Below, piece by piece: positions 40,856-48,653 of a DNA stretch of 64,000 nucleotides. The DNA comes from an uncultured Oscillospiraceae bacterium. GTDB lineage: Bacteria > Bacillota > Clostridia > Oscillospirales > Oscillospiraceae. The notes beneath the pieces are model-generated. The model ran no database searches and was not told the DNA's origin. It worked only from the letters and a program-made list of their open reading frames with translations. Within the stretch, counting starts at the first letter, position 1, and every line of letters starts with the position of its first letter. Position numbers and translations under genes: made by a program. The DNA lies in contig CANQSF010000005.1 in assembly GCA_947626345.1 (NCBI GenBank), forward strand, positions 1 to 64,000, read 5' to 3'.

Positions 40856-42229
40856 TCACTCGGTCCAGGGGCCGGACCAGTCCACCCCGTCGAACAGGGC
40901 CGGCTGGCCGCCGATGGTGAAGAACACCCGGTCCACCTGGTCCAGGGCGGTGAGGGAGGCGGTCATGGACCGGACCGCGATGGCCCGGTGCTCCGCCGGG
41001 AGGGAGGCGAAGAAGCTCTCCGACAGGTCCACCGTGCAGGAGGAGCCCCGGGCGGTGACGCTGCCCACGGTGCCGCTGCCGGAGAACAGGGCCGGATATC
41101 CCGGCTCCGCCGCGGTGAGCAGCGCCGCCAGCACCGCCTCCGGCACGGAGTCGTGCTCGCCCACGCTCACCCGCCAGGGCAGAGGCTCCACCGCCTCCAG
41201 GCCCGGCAGGGGCAGATACAGGTCCACGTCCAGCTCCCCCTGGTCCTCCGCCGACGGGGCGATGGCCTCCTCGTACCGGAGCAGGGGCTCCGCCAGGGAG
41301 CGGTAGACGTACCGGTCCACGCTCTGGCCCTCCACCAGGATCCGGACGCTGTCCACCTGGGGAAGGGCGGTGAGGGAGTCGGCGATGGAGCACAGGGCCA
41401 GCCGCTCTCCCGCGGCGGTATCGGGACGGCCGGTGATGAACGCCTCGGACAGGTCCACCGTGCACACGCCCTCATCCGTCTGGCAGGAGAGCAGCCGGGT
41501 CCCCGCCGGGATGGCGCTGCGCAGCTCCCCGCTGTTGGGCCCCCGCAGCAGCTCCTCCATCACGTACCGGTCCGCGGCCACGTCCTCGTCCAGGGTCAGG
41601 CTGTGGTACTCGCTGACCAGGTACCGGCCCTCGCCGTCGGCAAAATACAGCCGCAGCTGCCGCACATAGGGGTCGGTGTCCGACGCCAGCAGCAGCGCGT
41701 CCTCCGGCACCAGGCCGGAGAAGAGGGTCTGCCCGCCCGCCGTCACGGTGACGGCGTCCGCCCCGTCCAGCTGGCACAGGGTCAGGGCCAGGGCCAGAGC
41801 GGCGGCGGAGCGGTCCATCCCGTCCGCGTCCAGGAAGCTCTCGCTCAGACGCACGGTCACGATGCCCCGCTCCAGGGACCAGTCCTCCACGGTCACCCCC
41901 GCTGGCAGGGCGCAGCGCAGGTCCTCCGTCTGGCTGGGGGAGGCGAACAGATCGATGGCCGCGGCCAGCTCGTCCGTGACGCCCTCCGGCGGGAGAAGAT
42001 GCTCCCAGCCGGTGAGGGAGCCGTCCGGGTCCGCCCGCTCCGTCGCGCCGGGGTCCACCGGCGTGAGCCGGCAGATGGCCAGCGAGCCCTCCGCCGCGCC
42101 GTCCTCGGGCTGTTCCCAGGGAAGGTCAAAGGGCAGCTCGAAGGGCAGCTGCAGGGAGGCGGGATCGAAGGCGCAGCCGCTCAGCAGCAGCGCCAGCACC
42201 AGCGCCAGGGCGAAAAGCCGCGCTCTCAT
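40856..42229 (-). CDS. GerMN-domain lipoprotein
   Basis: A 457-residue lipoprotein with lipobox LLSGC (Cys18). Three GerMN-like units can be seen, each centred on a (V)DLSE-type strand: VRLSESFLDADG (about 125-140), CTVDLSEAFITG (about 240-255) and CTVDLSESFFAS (about 395-410). GerMN domains occur in GerM and in LpqB. It overlaps the sensor kinase stop by four bases and is therefore part of a regulator-kinase-lipoprotein transcript, as in the actinobacterial MtrA-MtrB-LpqB unit. Confidence 0.87.
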   Translation of the reverse strand: MRARLFALALVLALLLSGCAFDPASLQLPFELPFDLPWEQPEDGAAEGSLAICRLTPVDPGATERADPDGSLTGWEHLLPPEGVTDELAAAIDLFASPSQTEDLRCALPAGVTVEDWSLERGIVTVRLSESFLDADGMDRSAAALALALTLCQLDGADAVTVTAGGQTLFSGLVPEDALLLASDTDPYVRQLRLYFADGEGRYLVSEYHSLTLDEDVAADRYVMEELLRGPNSGELRSAIPAGTRLLSCQTDEGVCTVDLSEAFITGRPDTAAGERLALCSIADSLTALPQVDSVRILVEGQSVDRYVYRSLAEPLLRYEEAIAPSAEDQGELDVDLYLPLPGLEAVEPLPWRVSVGEHDSVPEAVLAALLTAAEPGYPALFSGSGTVGSVTARGSSCTVDLSESFFASLPAEHRAIAVRSMTASLTALDQVDRVFFTIGGQPALFDGVDWSGPWTE

Positions 42230-43638
42230 GACGCGCCTCCCTTCGGTGTGTACAGGGGGAAGGTGACGGTGAACACGGTGCCGCCCTCCGGCCGCCGGTC
42301 CACCCGGATGGCGCCGCCGTTGGCCTGGACCGCGTCGTGGACGATGGCCAGGCCCAGACCGCTGCCGCCGCTGGCCCGGGAGCGGGCCTTATCCACCCGG
42401 TAGAACCGGTCGAAGATGTGGTCCACGTCCGCCTCCGGGATGCCGATGCCCGTGTCGGACACGGTGAGCACCGCCGCCGTCCCCTCCGGGCGCAGGCGGA
42501 TGGAGACCGCGCCGCCGGGGACGTTGTACTTCACGCCGTTCTCCGCCAGGTTGAAGATGATCTGGTACATATCGTCCGCGGAGGCCAGCACCACGCAGTC
42601 CTCCGCCAGGTCGTGCCGGATTGTCACGTTCTGAGACGCGGCCAGGGGCTGCAGCAGCTGGAGCGTGCGCTCCGCCACGGAGCGCATGTCCACCGGCTCC
42701 CGCTGGCGGACGGACACGCCGGCGTCCAGCTTCGTCAGGCTCATGAGCTTTTCCGTGATGCGCTGGAGCCGGTCGGCCTCGCTGCCGATGTCCCGGGCGA
42801 ACTCCCGGGTGGTGGGGCCGTCCATGGTGTCGGACTGGGCGATGCTGTCGCTGAGCAGCCGGATGGCGGCCAGGGGGGTCCGCAGCTCGTGGGAGGCGTC
42901 GGACACGAACCGGCGGCGCACCTCCTCGGTGCTCTCCAGCCGGCCGGTGAGCACGTTGAACTCGTCGGACAGCTCCGCCAGCTCATCCCGGCCCCGGACC
43001 CGGACACGGGTGGCGTAATCCCCGCCCCGGACCGCGTCCATGGCGGCGCTGAGCCGCTTGATGCGGCGGGTGAGGGTGGAGGCCAGCACGAAGATGATGA
43101 CGAGCCCCGCCCCGCCGAACAGGGCGGACATGTTCAGAAGGTTCCGCTGCAGCCCCGCGATCAGCTCCCCCTGGGACTGGTCGTATTCATAGAGGAACAC
43201 CGCGCCCATGACGGAGCCGCCGGCGGCCACCGGCGTGGCGCATCGGCTGGTGAAGGCCCCCTCGGTATGGGAGTAGGAGCAGGAGAACCAGGCGTACCCG
43301 TCCAGGGCGCCCGCCAGCTCGCTCAAAAGGCCGTAGCGGCCCACGGCGCTGTCGTCCTGGTCGGTGTCGTAGAGGATGCGGCCGGACTGGTCGGCGACCA
43401 GCATCCGGGTGACCGGCGCCACGTCCAGCAGCCGGACCACCTGCTCCACCGATTCCGGGGTCAGCACCTCCAGCGCCGCCAGGGAGCTGGAGATCACGGA
43501 GCCCTGGGACTGGAGGGCGCTGCGCTTGGCGTCGATCACCATGTCCCGGCTCACCAGGATCGGGTAGATGTTCACGAACACCAGCAGCGCCGCCGTGAAC
43601 AGGGAGAAGGCGGCGGACAGCTTCGTGCGGACGGACAT
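42226..43638 (-). CDS. Sensor histidine kinase
   Basis: A 470-residue membrane kinase. One TM helix (about 8-30), an extracellular sensor region (about 32-165), a second TM (LFGGAGLVIIFVLASTL), a HAMP domain (about 190-242), the phosphoacceptor His in SDASHELRTPLAAI, and the ATPase domain with N box (NLAENGVKYNV), G1 (VSDTGIGIPEAD) and G2 (GSGLGLAIV) are all present. It is 22 bases behind the response regulator and overlaps the GerMN lipoprotein. Confidence 0.95.
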   Translation of the reverse strand: MSVRTKLSAAFSLFTAALLVFVNIYPILVSRDMVIDAKRSALQSQGSVISSSLAALEVLTPESVEQVVRLLDVAPVTRMLVADQSGRILYDTDQDDSAVGRYGLLSELAGALDGYAWFSCSYSHTEGAFTSRCATPVAAGGSVMGAVFLYEYDQSQGELIAGLQRNLLNMSALFGGAGLVIIFVLASTLTRRIKRLSAAMDAVRGGDYATRVRVRGRDELAELSDEFNVLTGRLESTEEVRRRFVSDASHELRTPLAAIRLLSDSIAQSDTMDGPTTREFARDIGSEADRLQRITEKLMSLTKLDAGVSVRQREPVDMRSVAERTLQLLQPLAASQNVTIRHDLAEDCVVLASADDMYQIIFNLAENGVKYNVPGGAVSIRLRPEGTAAVLTVSDTGIGIPEADVDHIFDRFYRVDKARSRASGGSGLGLAIVHDAVQANGGAIRVDRRPEGGTVFTVTFPLYTPKGGAS

Positions 43639-43660: not shown

Positions 43661-44344
43661 TCAGTCCTTGAAATAGTACCCCACGCCCCACTTGGTGATG
43701 ATATACGCCGGCTCCGCCGGGTTGGGCTCCAGCTTCTCCCGCAGCCGGCGGATGTGCACGTCCACGGTGCGGATGTCGCCCTGGTAGTCGTAGCCCCATA
43801 TCAGGTCCAGCAGGCTCTCCCGGGAGAAGACCTTCCCGGGGGAGCGCATGAGCAGCTCCACCAGGTCGAACTCCTTCACCGTCAGGTCCACGGCCCGGCC
43901 GTCCACCTGGGCGGAGCGGCGCTCGGTGTCGATGACGATGGAGCCCCGGGCCAGCCTGCCCTCCTGTCCGCCGGCGGCGGCCTGGAGGCCGGCCCGGCGC
44001 AGCAGCGCCCGCACCCGGGCCTTCAGCTCCAGGATGTTGAAGGGCTTGGTGATGTAATCGTCCGCGCCGTACTCAAAGCCGATGAGCTTGTCGGTGTCCT
44101 CGCTCTTGGCGGTGAGCATGATGATGGGCACGGTGGAGAACTCCCGGATCTTCATGCAAGCCGCCAGCCCGTCCATCTTCGGCATCATCAGGTCCAGGAT
44201 GATGAGCCCATAGTCCCCTGAGCGGGCCATCTCCACGGCCGTCAGCCCGTCGTAGCAGGCGTCCACCCCGTAGCCCTCGCTCTCCAGATTGAACTTGATG
44301 CCCTTGACCAGCAGCTCCTCGTCGTCCACTACCAGGATCTTCAT
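43661..44344 (-). CDS. OmpR/PhoB-family response regulator
   Basis: A 227-residue regulator. The receiver domain has the acidic pair in VVDDEE, phosphoacceptor Asp in ILDLMMPKMDG, Thr in MLTAKSE and Lys in ITKPF. The C-terminal winged-helix DNA-binding domain (about 130-227) ends with VDVHIRRLREKLEPNPAEPAYI and VGYYFKD. It is WalR/PhoB-like in layout and precedes its kinase in the same transcript, behind the ComEA-like gene. Confidence 0.96.
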   Translation of the reverse strand: MKILVVDDEELLVKGIKFNLESEGYGVDACYDGLTAVEMARSGDYGLIILDLMMPKMDGLAACMKIREFSTVPIIMLTAKSEDTDKLIGFEYGADDYITKPFNILELKARVRALLRRAGLQAAAGGQEGRLARGSIVIDTERRSAQVDGRAVDLTVKEFDLVELLMRSPGKVFSRESLLDLIWGYDYQGDIRTVDVHIRRLREKLEPNPAEPAYIITKWGVGYYFKD

Positions 44345-44359
44345 GACTGCGCTCCTCGC

Positions 44360-44713
44360 TCAGAATTCGATGTATGGGGCGATGGCCTCATAGGTGGCCG
44401 GGCCGATGCCCTGCACGGCCATCACGTCCTCGGGACCGGTGAAGGGGCCGTTGGCCTGCCGCCAGGCGACGATCCGCTCCGCCAGCACGGGCCCCACCCC
44501 GGGCAGCTCCTGCAGCTGCTCTGCCGAGGCGGCGTTCAGGTCCAGCCCGCCGGCCCGCTCCGCCAGGGCCGCCCGGTCCGGGGCGGTCAGGGCCATGGGC
44601 ACAGCGCCGCCGTCCAGAGCGTACCAGACCGCCGTGCCCGCCGCCAGCAGCGCGGTCACGGCCCACAGCGCCGGCCGAAGGGCGCTCCGTTTTCGCCTCG
44701 CCATTTTTTGCAT
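44360..44713 (-). CDS. ComEA-like helix-hairpin-helix membrane protein
   Basis: A 117-residue protein with an N-terminal TM anchor (LRPALWAVTALLAAGTAVWY) and a C-terminal double HhH DNA-binding domain (LDLNAASAEQLQELPGVGPVLAERIVAWR ... VMAVQGIGPATYEAIAPYI). This is the ComEA core, the DNA receptor of competence, but the usual SLBB domain and comEC partner are absent. No ribosome site is evident; an alternative start is the ATG three codons in. It is 15 bases before the response regulator. Confidence 0.8.
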   Translation of the reverse strand: MQKMARRKRSALRPALWAVTALLAAGTAVWYALDGGAVPMALTAPDRAALAERAGGLDLNAASAEQLQELPGVGPVLAERIVAWRQANGPFTGPEDVMAVQGIGPATYEAIAPYIEF

Positions 44714-44735
44714 GAAAGTTTAAGAAAGTTAAAGG

Positions 44736-44764
44736 TTGCTTTTCCGAAGGATTTTTTCTATAAT
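44736..44764 (+). promoter_or_regulatory. Promoter for carboxypeptidase-like gene
   Basis: TTGCTT (44736-44741), 17 bases, TATAAT (44759-44764). Confidence 0.75.
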
Positions 44765-44813: not shown

Positions 44814-46334
44814 ATGAAAAAATTCAAGCTGTTGTCCTTTCTTCTGATCATATCGCTGTTCGTCACCCTCCTGGCCGTGCCGGCGGCCGCCGTGCCGGAG
44901 CCCACCGTGAACGCTCAGTCCGCCGTGGTCATAGACGCGGACACCGGGGACGTGATGTATCAGCTCAACGCCGACCAGCGCTTCTCCCCGGCGGAGATGA
45001 CCATGGTGATGACGGCGCTGATGACGGCGGACGCCATCCAGGAGCGGACCGTGGCCCTGTCCGACCAGGTCACCGCCTCGGAGGAGATCTATTACAACGT
45101 CACCGACAATTCCGTCACCATGGACCCGGCCATGAAGCCGGGGGAGACCCTGTCGGTGGAGGATCTGCTGTACGCGCTGTTTCTGCAGTCCGCCACGGAG
45201 GCATGCAACGCCCTGGCGGAGCACGTGGCCGGCTCGGTGAACACCTTCGTGGCGGGGATGAACCGGCGGGCCCAGGAGCTGGGCTGCCGGAACACCCACT
45301 TCGTCAACGCCAACGGCCGGCCGGCGGAGGATCAGTACACCACCGCCATGGACATGGCCGTGATCGCCCGCCAGCTGGTGGGCAACGCCCAGATCCTGGG
45401 CATCAGCGGCGCCGCGACCCATACCGTGGAGGCCACGGACCAGGCCAACGAGCGAGTGATGACCAACCGCAACGAGATGGTCACCCCCGCCAGCGACCTG
45501 TACTTCGACCGGGCCTACGGCATCAAAAACGGCTATGACGAGGGCTATGGCCGGTGCATGGTGGCCGCCGCCGAGTGGAACGAGGTGAACGTGATCGCCG
45601 TGGTCATCGGCTGTCCGGAGGTGGGCGACCAGTTCCGGGCCGCCCGGAGCCTGTTCGACTGGGTGTTCGCCAACTTCAGCTACCGTCCCCTGCTGTCCAC
45701 CACCCAGGTGCTGGACACCATCGAGGTGGAGCTGGGCAGCCCCGGCAGCGTGGGCGTGCGGGCGGAGAGCGGCATGTCCCTGATCCTGCCCAACGACCAG
45801 CAGCTGGGCGACGTCCGCTATGAGGTCCAGTACGCCCACGAGCAGGAGGGGCGGAAGCTGGAGGCCCCCATCAACGCCGGGGAATACCTGGGGACGGTGG
45901 AGGTGTTCCTGGACGGGGAGAGCTACGGCACCTCCCGCCTGGTGGCCGCCACCTCGGTGGAGATCTCCCGGGTGGAGTACATGCGCACCCAGCTGAAGGG
46001 GATGTTCCAGACCCCCGCCATCCGCCAGATCGTCACCGTGCTCATCATCCTGCTGGCCATCTATCTGCTGCTGATGGTGTTCTACTTCGTCCAGCGGTCC
46101 CGCCATCTGCACAGCCTGCGGGTGGCCAAAAAGGACCGGGCCATCGCCCAGGCCCAGCGGGAGGCCCAGTGGATCGACGACCCGGACGACGAGGACGACT
46201 ATGACGGCCCCGCCGGTTACATCGACCGGCCGGAGGACGGCCCGCAGGACGAGGACGGTTACGACGACGGCCCCGCCCCCCGCGGCGCCCACTCCGCCGA
46301 CGAGGATTACTTCGACAGCTACTTCAAGGGATAA
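44814..46334 (+). CDS. Catalytically degenerate D,D-carboxypeptidase-like protein (pseudo-PBP)
   Basis: A 506-residue secreted/membrane protein with the S11 peptidase fold of DacA/DacF. A signal peptide (about 1-26) is followed by the transpeptidase-like domain (about 30-285), a PBP5_C-like beta domain (about 300-395), a TM helix (VTVLIILLAIYLLLMVFYFV, about 405-425) and an acidic cytoplasmic tail. The fold is recognisable (ALAEHVAGSVNTFVAGMN, NTHFVNANG), but every catalytic motif is changed: the usual PASxTK is PAEMTM (Ser to Glu61, Lys to Met64), SxN is SAT (126-128), and KTG is KNG (238-240). It cannot act by serine acylation and may be a scaffold or sensor. GGAG precedes the ATG. Confidence 0.85.
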   Translation: MKKFKLLSFLLIISLFVTLLAVPAAAVPEPTVNAQSAVVIDADTGDVMYQLNADQRFSPAEMTMVMTALMTADAIQERTVALSDQVTASEEIYYNVTDNSVTMDPAMKPGETLSVEDLLYALFLQSATEACNALAEHVAGSVNTFVAGMNRRAQELGCRNTHFVNANGRPAEDQYTTAMDMAVIARQLVGNAQILGISGAATHTVEATDQANERVMTNRNEMVTPASDLYFDRAYGIKNGYDEGYGRCMVAAAEWNEVNVIAVVIGCPEVGDQFRAARSLFDWVFANFSYRPLLSTTQVLDTIEVELGSPGSVGVRAESGMSLILPNDQQLGDVRYEVQYAHEQEGRKLEAPINAGEYLGTVEVFLDGESYGTSRLVAATSVEISRVEYMRTQLKGMFQTPAIRQIVTVLIILLAIYLLLMVFYFVQRSRHLHSLRVAKKDRAIAQAQREAQWIDDPDDEDDYDGPAGYIDRPEDGPQDEDGYDDGPAPRGAHSADEDYFDSYFKG

Positions 46335-46360
46335 CGACCACCTCTTTTGGAACGATAAAA

Positions 46361-46386
46361 GACCGGGGCGCGAAAGCGCCCCGGTC
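46361..46386. terminator. Bidirectional terminator
   Basis: GACCGGGGCGC, loop GAAA, GCGCCCCGGTC, with ATAAAA before and GTTAT after. Serves the carboxypeptidase-like gene and the converging lipoprotein. Confidence 0.85.
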
Positions 46387-46396
46387 GTTATCTCAT

Positions 46397-46729
46397 TTAT
46401 TTCTTTTTTAGCTTAATTTCGTCTTGAATCAACGAGTTGCCTTTAATGTCAAAGGGCGTAATAAAACCATCATGGTAAAGCTCCAACTCGCGCCCGTCCA
46501 ACGCCCACGTTCCGGCTTCATCACTGCTATACACCCCGTTTCTGTAGATTACTTCAAAATATGTACCATCCTCGTAAATGTCCAAAATCTCGCGTCTGTC
46601 CACACCCATATATGACCATTCGCCTTCCCAAGTCCCGACGACGTTTTCCTCTGTAGCACATGCGGCAAGAGAGAAGCACAGGGAAAGGATAAGAATTAGA
46701 GCCGTTGTGTGCGTAAGTGTTCTTTTCAT
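46397..46729 (-). CDS. Small lipoprotein, unknown function
   Basis: A 110-residue lipoprotein. The signal peptide ends in SLAAC (Cys24), and the mature part begins VVGTWEGEWSYMG, a lipocalin-like beta-barrel start seen in small Firmicute lipoproteins (DUF5640-like). GGGGG lies upstream of the ATG at 46729. It is last in a three-gene, AT-richer transcript and was probably acquired with its neighbours. Confidence 0.7.
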   Translation of the reverse strand: MKRTLTHTTALILILSLCFSLAACATEENVVGTWEGEWSYMGVDRREILDIYEDGTYFEVIYRNGVYSSDEAGTWALDGRELELYHDGFITPFDIKGNSLIQDEIKLKKK

Positions 46730-47861: not shown

Positions 47862-48653
47862 TTACGCCTGGCCAGATTTGCGGCCCAGGGTGAGGGAGTC
47901 GGCAATCATGGCGATGAACTCCGAATTGGTGGGCTTACCCTTGATGTTGGACACGGTGTAGCCGAAGAACTTTTGCAGCGTCTCCAGGTCGCCCCGGTCC
48001 CAGGCCACCTCGATGGCGTGGCGGATGGCCCGCTCCACCCGGCTGGGGGTGGTGGCGAACTTCTTCGCCACGGCGGGGTAGAGGACCTTGGTGACGGCGT
48101 TGATGACCTCCATGTCGTTGACGGTGAGGATGATGGCCTCCCGCAGGTACTGGTAGCCCTTGATGTGGGCGGGCACGCCGATCTCATGGATGATGTCGGT
48201 GACTACGGCCTCCAGGGTGGGCTCCTTGGGCAGCGCCGCGATGGCCACGCCCTGGGAGACGGGCTTTCCGGGGCGGCGGCGCTCGGCGGCCACCTGGCGG
48301 ATGTGGGTCAGCAGCGCGGGCACGTCGCAGGGCTTGGGGATGAAGTAATATGCGCCCAGCTCCGAGCAGGCAGTGACCACCTGGTCGTTGAAAAAGCCGG
48401 ACAGGACGATGGCCGCCGGACCGTCGTCCTGGTCCCGTAGCGCCGCCAGCAGGCCCATGCCGTCCAGCCGGGACAGGACCAGATCCGTCACCAACACGTC
48501 AGGCCGCAGCGCCTGTGTCATCGCCAGCGCCTCCTGACCGTCGCCCGCCGTTCCGACCACCAGAAGATCCCCCTCGGCGTTGATCACATCCGAGAGCATC
48601 TTCCGAAAGTCCTCGCCGGGATCGGCAATGAGAATGCGCGTCGTAGTTTCCAT
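47862..48653 (-). CDS. spo0A: Stage 0 sporulation protein A
   Basis: Spo0A is the master regulator of sporulation entry. The 263-residue protein has a receiver domain (Asp11, phosphoacceptor Asp57 in [11 protein letters not shown], Lys in FIPKPC) and the diagnostic C-terminal DNA-binding domain with [31 protein letters not shown] and [15 protein letters not shown]. The acidic pocket reads ADPGED where B. subtilis has ADDN. A GGGAGG site precedes the ATG. Two 0A-box-like sites lie upstream, indicating autoregulation. Its presence shows that the organism descends from spore formers. Confidence 0.97.

Follow-up and report, generated by a model that had tools for sequence, protein, structure and literature searches.

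Retention of an S11 D,D-carboxypeptidase pseudoenzyme at a comEA-linked locus in Oscillospiraceae

Related penicillin-binding proteins and dead cell-wall factors

Acylation by the S11 enzymes needs both a serine and a lysine. The class C low-molecular-mass penicillin-binding proteins (PBPs), i.e., E. coli PBP5/PBP6 and the B. subtilis DacA/DacF type, have the same ectodomain fold, PBP5_C domain and signal peptide as the protein that is described here. Our protein, however, lacks the catalytic Ser and Lys, the Asn of SxN and the Thr of KTG, and carries a predicted single-pass transmembrane (TM) helix and a cytoplasmic tail where these PBPs have their amphipathic anchor. The sensor domains of BlaR1/MecR1 are extracellular, PBP-like and membrane-linked as well, but they need an acylated serine, which is absent here, where the position is occupied by E61.

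Cell-wall hydrolase folds that have lost catalysis and are kept by selection are known from the degenerate LytM factors. EnvC, NlpD and DipM are catalytically dead regulators of the cell-wall amidases; the dead cleft of EnvC binds its partner, and EnvC probably lost its activity independently of NlpD (PMC8416486). Their fold is unrelated to that of the S11 proteins, and a role as regulator is one that we infer for the protein studied here. Among the PBPs, PBP 2B of B. subtilis has a structural role without catalysis (PMC5656894), and the inactive S44G variant of E. coli PBP5 pairs differently and causes bulging, whereas the absence of PBP5 hardly disturbs the cell shape (PMC5596342). Catalysis-independent effects of a PBP fold, as proposed in this study, therefore have precedents, but these are engineered laboratory mutants, while a natural pseudoenzyme family is considered here. 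A literature search that combined pseudoenzyme with penicillin-binding protein found no paper, although few subscription journals were covered and an earlier description is possible.

The gene, its product and its neighbourhood

The window, which is the whole stretch of 64,000 nucleotides that was analysed (contig CANQSF010000005.1), belongs to a genome (G000) of 2.6 Mb that is 98% complete. The features that are discussed below are collected in Table 1. The open reading frame is complete, with an ATG start, 506 codons and a stop, and its product matches the Peptidase_S11 family of Pfam across residues 26-267 (E=3e-53, 181 bits compared to a cut-off of 27.6 bits). The order of the domains is a signal peptide, S11, PBP5_C, a long helix (401-455), within which the membrane span lies, and an acidic, disordered tail. 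PBP5 and PBP6 from E. coli and P. aeruginosa were found among the sequence matches. An AlphaFold2 model that was built from the window protein and 18 related sequences had a mean pLDDT of 79.9, and the PBP5/PBP6 structures aligned with it over residues ~21-387 with Z ~38; the overall rmsd was large, probably because of the domain arrangement. By the homology of the S11 domain and by these structures, the protein belongs to the S11 D,D-carboxypeptidase family in fold and descent.

Table 1. Positions of the pseudo-carboxypeptidase gene, its parts and its neighbours in the window
Feature	Position	Strand	Details
Sensor histidine kinase (HK), conserved neighbour	42226..43638	-	
OmpR/PhoB-type response regulator (RR), conserved neighbour	43661..44344	-	
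comEA-like gene, divergent neighbour	44360..44713	-	HHH_3 7e-22; synteny conserved in family
Sigma-70-type promoter TTGCTT-17 bp-TATAAT	44736..44764	+	upstream of pseudo-carboxypeptidase gene
Pseudo-D,D-carboxypeptidase gene (S11/PBP5 type)	44814..46334	+	506 aa; catalytic Ser, Lys, Asn, Thr lost
Extracellular S11 pseudo-catalytic domain	44892..45614	+	residues ~27-267; Pfam PF00768, motifs E61/M64, SAT, KNG
PBP5_C-like C-terminal beta domain	45675..45962	+	residues 288-383; Pfam PF07943 1.2e-7; beta strands in model
Transmembrane helix and basic juxtamembrane helix	46014..46166	+	residues ~401-451; model helix 401-455; lowest beta/alpha in dead clade
C-terminal cytoplasmic motif EDYFDSYFKG	46302..46331	+	core DYF[DE]x[FY]F at 46305-46325
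Terminator-like hairpin, then T-rich stretch	~46354..46392	+	RNA fold of 46335-46400: -32.4 kcal/mol, z -5.6

The active-site motifs have all been altered. Motif I reads SPAEMTM, so that neither the SxxK nucleophile nor the general base is present, and no lysine is found close by in the helix; SAT (126-128) is found where SxN is expected and KNG (238-240) in place of KTG. Because two Paenibacillus homologues (L046 and L049) combine KNG with an intact SxxK, KNG alone is no proof of inactivity, and our argument was built on the Ser and Lys. From the established chemistry of S11 enzymes it follows that neither D-Ala-D-Ala nor a beta-lactam can acylate a protein without Ser61, Lys64 and intact SxN and KTG.

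The gene is divergent from the genes for comEA, the RR, the HK, a GerM-like protein, PepP and EFP, and this order is kept throughout the genus and, apart from some exceptions, in the family as well, beside active and inactive versions alike. Due to this common gene order, the comparison of active and dead genes is one of positional orthologues. The promoter, in the form TTGNTT-17-TATAAT, was present in all 9 active and in 25 of the 26 dead orthologues of the genus with enough upstream sequence, with a spacer of exactly 17 bp in each of the 34 genus genes that have it, and is followed by a GGAG ribosome site. Directly 5' of the -35 box lies an 11-bp direct repeat, GAAAGTTTAAGAAAGTTAAAG (44714-44735, + strand), which was considered as a possible response-regulator site and dropped, as it is not conserved in the relatives. 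Approximately 1.5 kb downstream of the gene, spo0A was identified (47862-48653, - strand; Response_reg and Spo0A_C, 3e-46), and it is also found near the orthologue in several other members of the genus.

These observations bear out a preliminary description of the locus as regards the preserved D,D-carboxypeptidase fold, the intact 506-codon frame with its promoter and terminator, and the loss of SxxK, SxN and KTG as E61/M64, SAT and KNG, the loss now extending to 26 sequences. Two of its points needed amendment. The RR and HK genes, which it had placed next to the gene, are separated from it by comEA and stand equally beside active orthologues. The acidic tail is there too, with the added detail that it ends in a conserved motif, DYF(D/E)x(F/Y)F.

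This motif also occurs in the remainder of the window's group and in a Ser-to-Asp protein of genome G076, and takes the form RDYFEEFF in many active members of the family and DDYFDSFF in active members of the genus; several other dead subclades are missing it. No second protein with a C-terminal DYF motif was found, the DNA pattern matching once in the whole genome. We infer that the motif may be a docking peptide. Expanded cytoplasmic tails with acidic repeats, e.g., YADEGQ, were observed in the dead orthologues L027, L029, L033 and L026.

Spread of the loss and selection on the dead proteins

An orthologue was present in all 34 other genomes of the genus, with an identity of 44-90%. Ser61 and Lys64 were missing in 25 of the 35 genomes and intact in 10; together with one extra contig (L039), this gave a dead set of 26 sequences, the frames of which are all open, contig ends aside. 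In a phylogeny from which the motif columns had been masked, the 26 dead sequences formed one clade that was nested among the active orthologues (bootstrap/SH-aLRT 100/99). On the evidence of these sequences, the catalytic machinery disappeared a single time, in an ancestor shared by most of the genus, while the fold, the signal peptide, the TM helix, the promoter and the locus were retained under purifying selection. Both further S11 genes of the source genome have intact motifs, as do all of the other S11 paralogues that were sampled across the genus. A mutation of a single lineage or an assembly error was rejected, the loss being common to 26 sequences; a separate dead duplicate was rejected as well, since the dead genes occupy the same locus as the active orthologues and the genuine paralogues that were examined are all intact. 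The preliminary description had named a mutation of this copy alone, with close relatives intact, as what would speak against it; the opposite was found, though intact versions do occur in members of the genus that are more distant.

The analysis of selection, which that description had proposed, gave omega values well below 1 for the 26 dead sequences. With the codon models of IQ-TREE, the one-ratio omega was ~0.28 in the dead clade and ~0.08-0.1 in the active clade, omega=1 being rejected with a 2dlnL of over 1200. Within subclades, the values were 0.13-0.26 for the dead and 0.05-0.15 for the active proteins, and omega=1 was again rejected in each (in the window's subclade, lnL -2727 compared to -2777 at omega=1, 2dlnL ~100); four close dead pairs had NG86 values of 0.05-0.07. 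Because synonymous sites are close to saturation in deep pairs, the subclade and close-pair values are the safer ones. Evolution is faster in the dead clade than among the active orthologues, and the pattern is therefore partly one of relaxed constraint.

The relaxation is uneven. Structural glycines and residues of the core fold stay in the dead orthologues, while the columns that were lost are mainly the catalytic motifs and their neighbours; most of the positions that are invariant in the active and variable in the dead proteins are P59, S61, T63, K64, N128, Y175, G236, T239, G240, T242, A245, C248 and L249. In the dead clade, E, G, A, T, V, N or F is found at position 61 and M, V, T, A, Q, L, F or R at position 64. 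The pocket beta was 0.046 compared to 0.150 in the rest of the domain for the active proteins, and 0.341 compared to 0.322 for the dead ones, a contrast that is partly built in because the motifs by which the two classes are defined were among the pocket sites. A comparison of columns revealed no newly conserved pocket residue in the dead clade. In the dead clade, conservation is higher in the TM/juxtamembrane part than in the ectodomain (beta/alpha of 0.12-0.13 compared to 0.18), which is not so in the active orthologues. At the level of sequence, then, the gene encodes a conserved S11 pseudoenzyme, in which the active site is lost while fold and expression signals are under purifying selection in many species, as had been suggested at the outset.

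Outside the genus, the nucleophile was lost in G076 (Ser to Asp), in G042 and in the group of G045, G041 and G091, while in G043 the position is Cys. This Cys protein (L083) keeps the Lys and SxN and has KSG, and might be an active thiol version. Parsimony on the tree required five changes of the nucleophile, or four if the Cys protein is counted as active, and a single clade of all of the dead sequences, i.e., one origin, was rejected (AU p=0.0004). By this reconstruction, other genera account for at least three further, independent losses of the nucleophile at this locus. The dead state was found in each of the 6 orthologues that were read in the genus of G045 and Ser-to-Asp domains in 6 of 7 genomes in that of G076, while in the genus of G042 KTG was lost in all 12 orthologues read, some of which keep SxxK. 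In the g43 lineage, only the Ser has changed (to Asp) and the Lys and often KTG remain; altered motifs also occur in a few relatives at the level of the order. Genomes G074, G200 and G201 encode, in one frame, an intact S11 domain, a Ser-to-Asp S11 domain and a TM helix. Such active-dead fusions are single frames of 813-941 aa (L080 from 3581 onward on the + strand; L190; L192/L194). The presence of a dead and a live domain in cis suggests that the dead S11 domains serve live ones, and is suggestive with regard to an EnvC-like interaction with an active cell-wall enzyme.

Possible roles of the retained protein

The reading that we favour, with a probability of roughly 0.6, is that the pseudo-carboxypeptidase has a non-catalytic job as a membrane-spanning scaffold for active cell-wall enzymes or as their allosteric partner. 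Beside its enzymatic activity, the ancestral protein would already have served, as a single-pass membrane protein, to link the extracellular cell-wall machinery with a cytoplasmic partner via the C-terminal DYF motif. The presence of two other intact S11 enzymes may then have made catalysis dispensable, and the dead protein would now act as the scaffold or partner, by analogy with the degenerate LytM regulators (EnvC) and the dimers of E. coli D,D-carboxypeptidases, where a subunit that is inactive still has an effect. Three findings go against this proposal: an exchange of the ectodomain in one lineage, which is unexpected for a fixed scaffold interface, the absence of the C-terminal motif in several dead subclades, and the faster evolution of the dead clade with its share of relaxed constraint.

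The exchange concerns G001, the RR, HK and TM part of which are 92%, 91% and 85% identical to those of the window, while its ectodomain is only 48% identical and groups elsewhere; its placement with the clade of the neighbours was rejected (AU p=2.6e-9), although that clade has a support of 99 in the RR+HK tree. Such a pattern indicates at least one intragenic recombination event. In L038 and L013 (G001), the signal-peptide side, TM and tail are window-like and the ectodomain has been exchanged between lineages. The conflict of the trees, along with an ectodomain that is less conserved than the TM part in the dead clade and not in the active orthologues, would be expected if the dead ectodomain were a variable surface receptor or decoy, a target of or protection against phages, bacteriocins or host immunity, that diversifies by allele exchange. 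We regard this as unlikely, since only one clear swap was detected, the ectodomain omega is ~0.2 and a custom FUBAR-like grid found no positively selected site, i.e., none with a posterior over 0.7 for beta>alpha. A sensor without catalysis, which would detect stem peptides or beta-lactams and signal via its tail or the adjacent two-component system, is favoured by the extracellular PBP fold with its TM helix and cytoplasmic tail and by the RR and HK neighbours, but is quite unlikely. Ligand binding may persist in the g43 lineage, but the window's clade does not conserve those motif residues that contact the ligand, the two-component system flanks the active orthologues as well and the upstream repeat is not conserved. 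Of the roles that the preliminary description had offered, namely a scaffold or a peptidoglycan- or beta-lactam-independent sensor, the scaffold would thus fit best and the sensor is weak, since the two-component system also accompanies active orthologues and the substrate-binding pocket residues were not kept.

A slowly decaying relic, in which some constraint remains on folding alone (avoiding toxic misfolding), would account for the faster evolution of the dead clade and for the diverse, unconserved residues at the motifs. With 26 open frames, retained promoters, omega far below 1, loss of the gene in none of the 35 genomes and repeated losses that are retained across other genera, this is very unlikely. 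The kept fold and the remaining S126 and K238 of the window protein could be taken as signs of an enzyme with a new chemistry in the same cleft; however, the pocket has no newly conserved residue and the positions that are newly invariant in the dead proteins lie elsewhere, which makes this extremely improbable.

Returning to the scaffold or allosteric partner, a wider version of this proposal is that the comEA-linked, TM-anchored S11 proteins of the family are a two-function class, the essential role of which is non-catalytic transmembrane coupling between cell-wall enzymes and a cytoplasmic partner via DYF(D/E)xFF, catalysis having been shed on separate occasions in several genera. We put this forward tentatively, at somewhat less than even odds; if it is true, these proteins would be a natural family of pseudo-PBP regulators that is comparable to EnvC. 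Since the genus has active and dead orthologues at one locus, and its relatives have active-dead fusions, the non-catalytic role is directly testable.

Homology-based annotation of such genes would be D-alanyl-D-alanine carboxypeptidase, whereas a widespread set of these S11 proteins is expected to be neither that enzyme nor a target of beta-lactams. The surprising element is the recurrence of the loss at one locus. The question of a non-catalytic role of PBPs has so far been approached through engineered mutants (PBP 2B and PBP5 S44G); the repeated and retained loss of catalysis at this locus is a natural experiment, in which a low-molecular-mass PBP has been kept for something other than peptide trimming.
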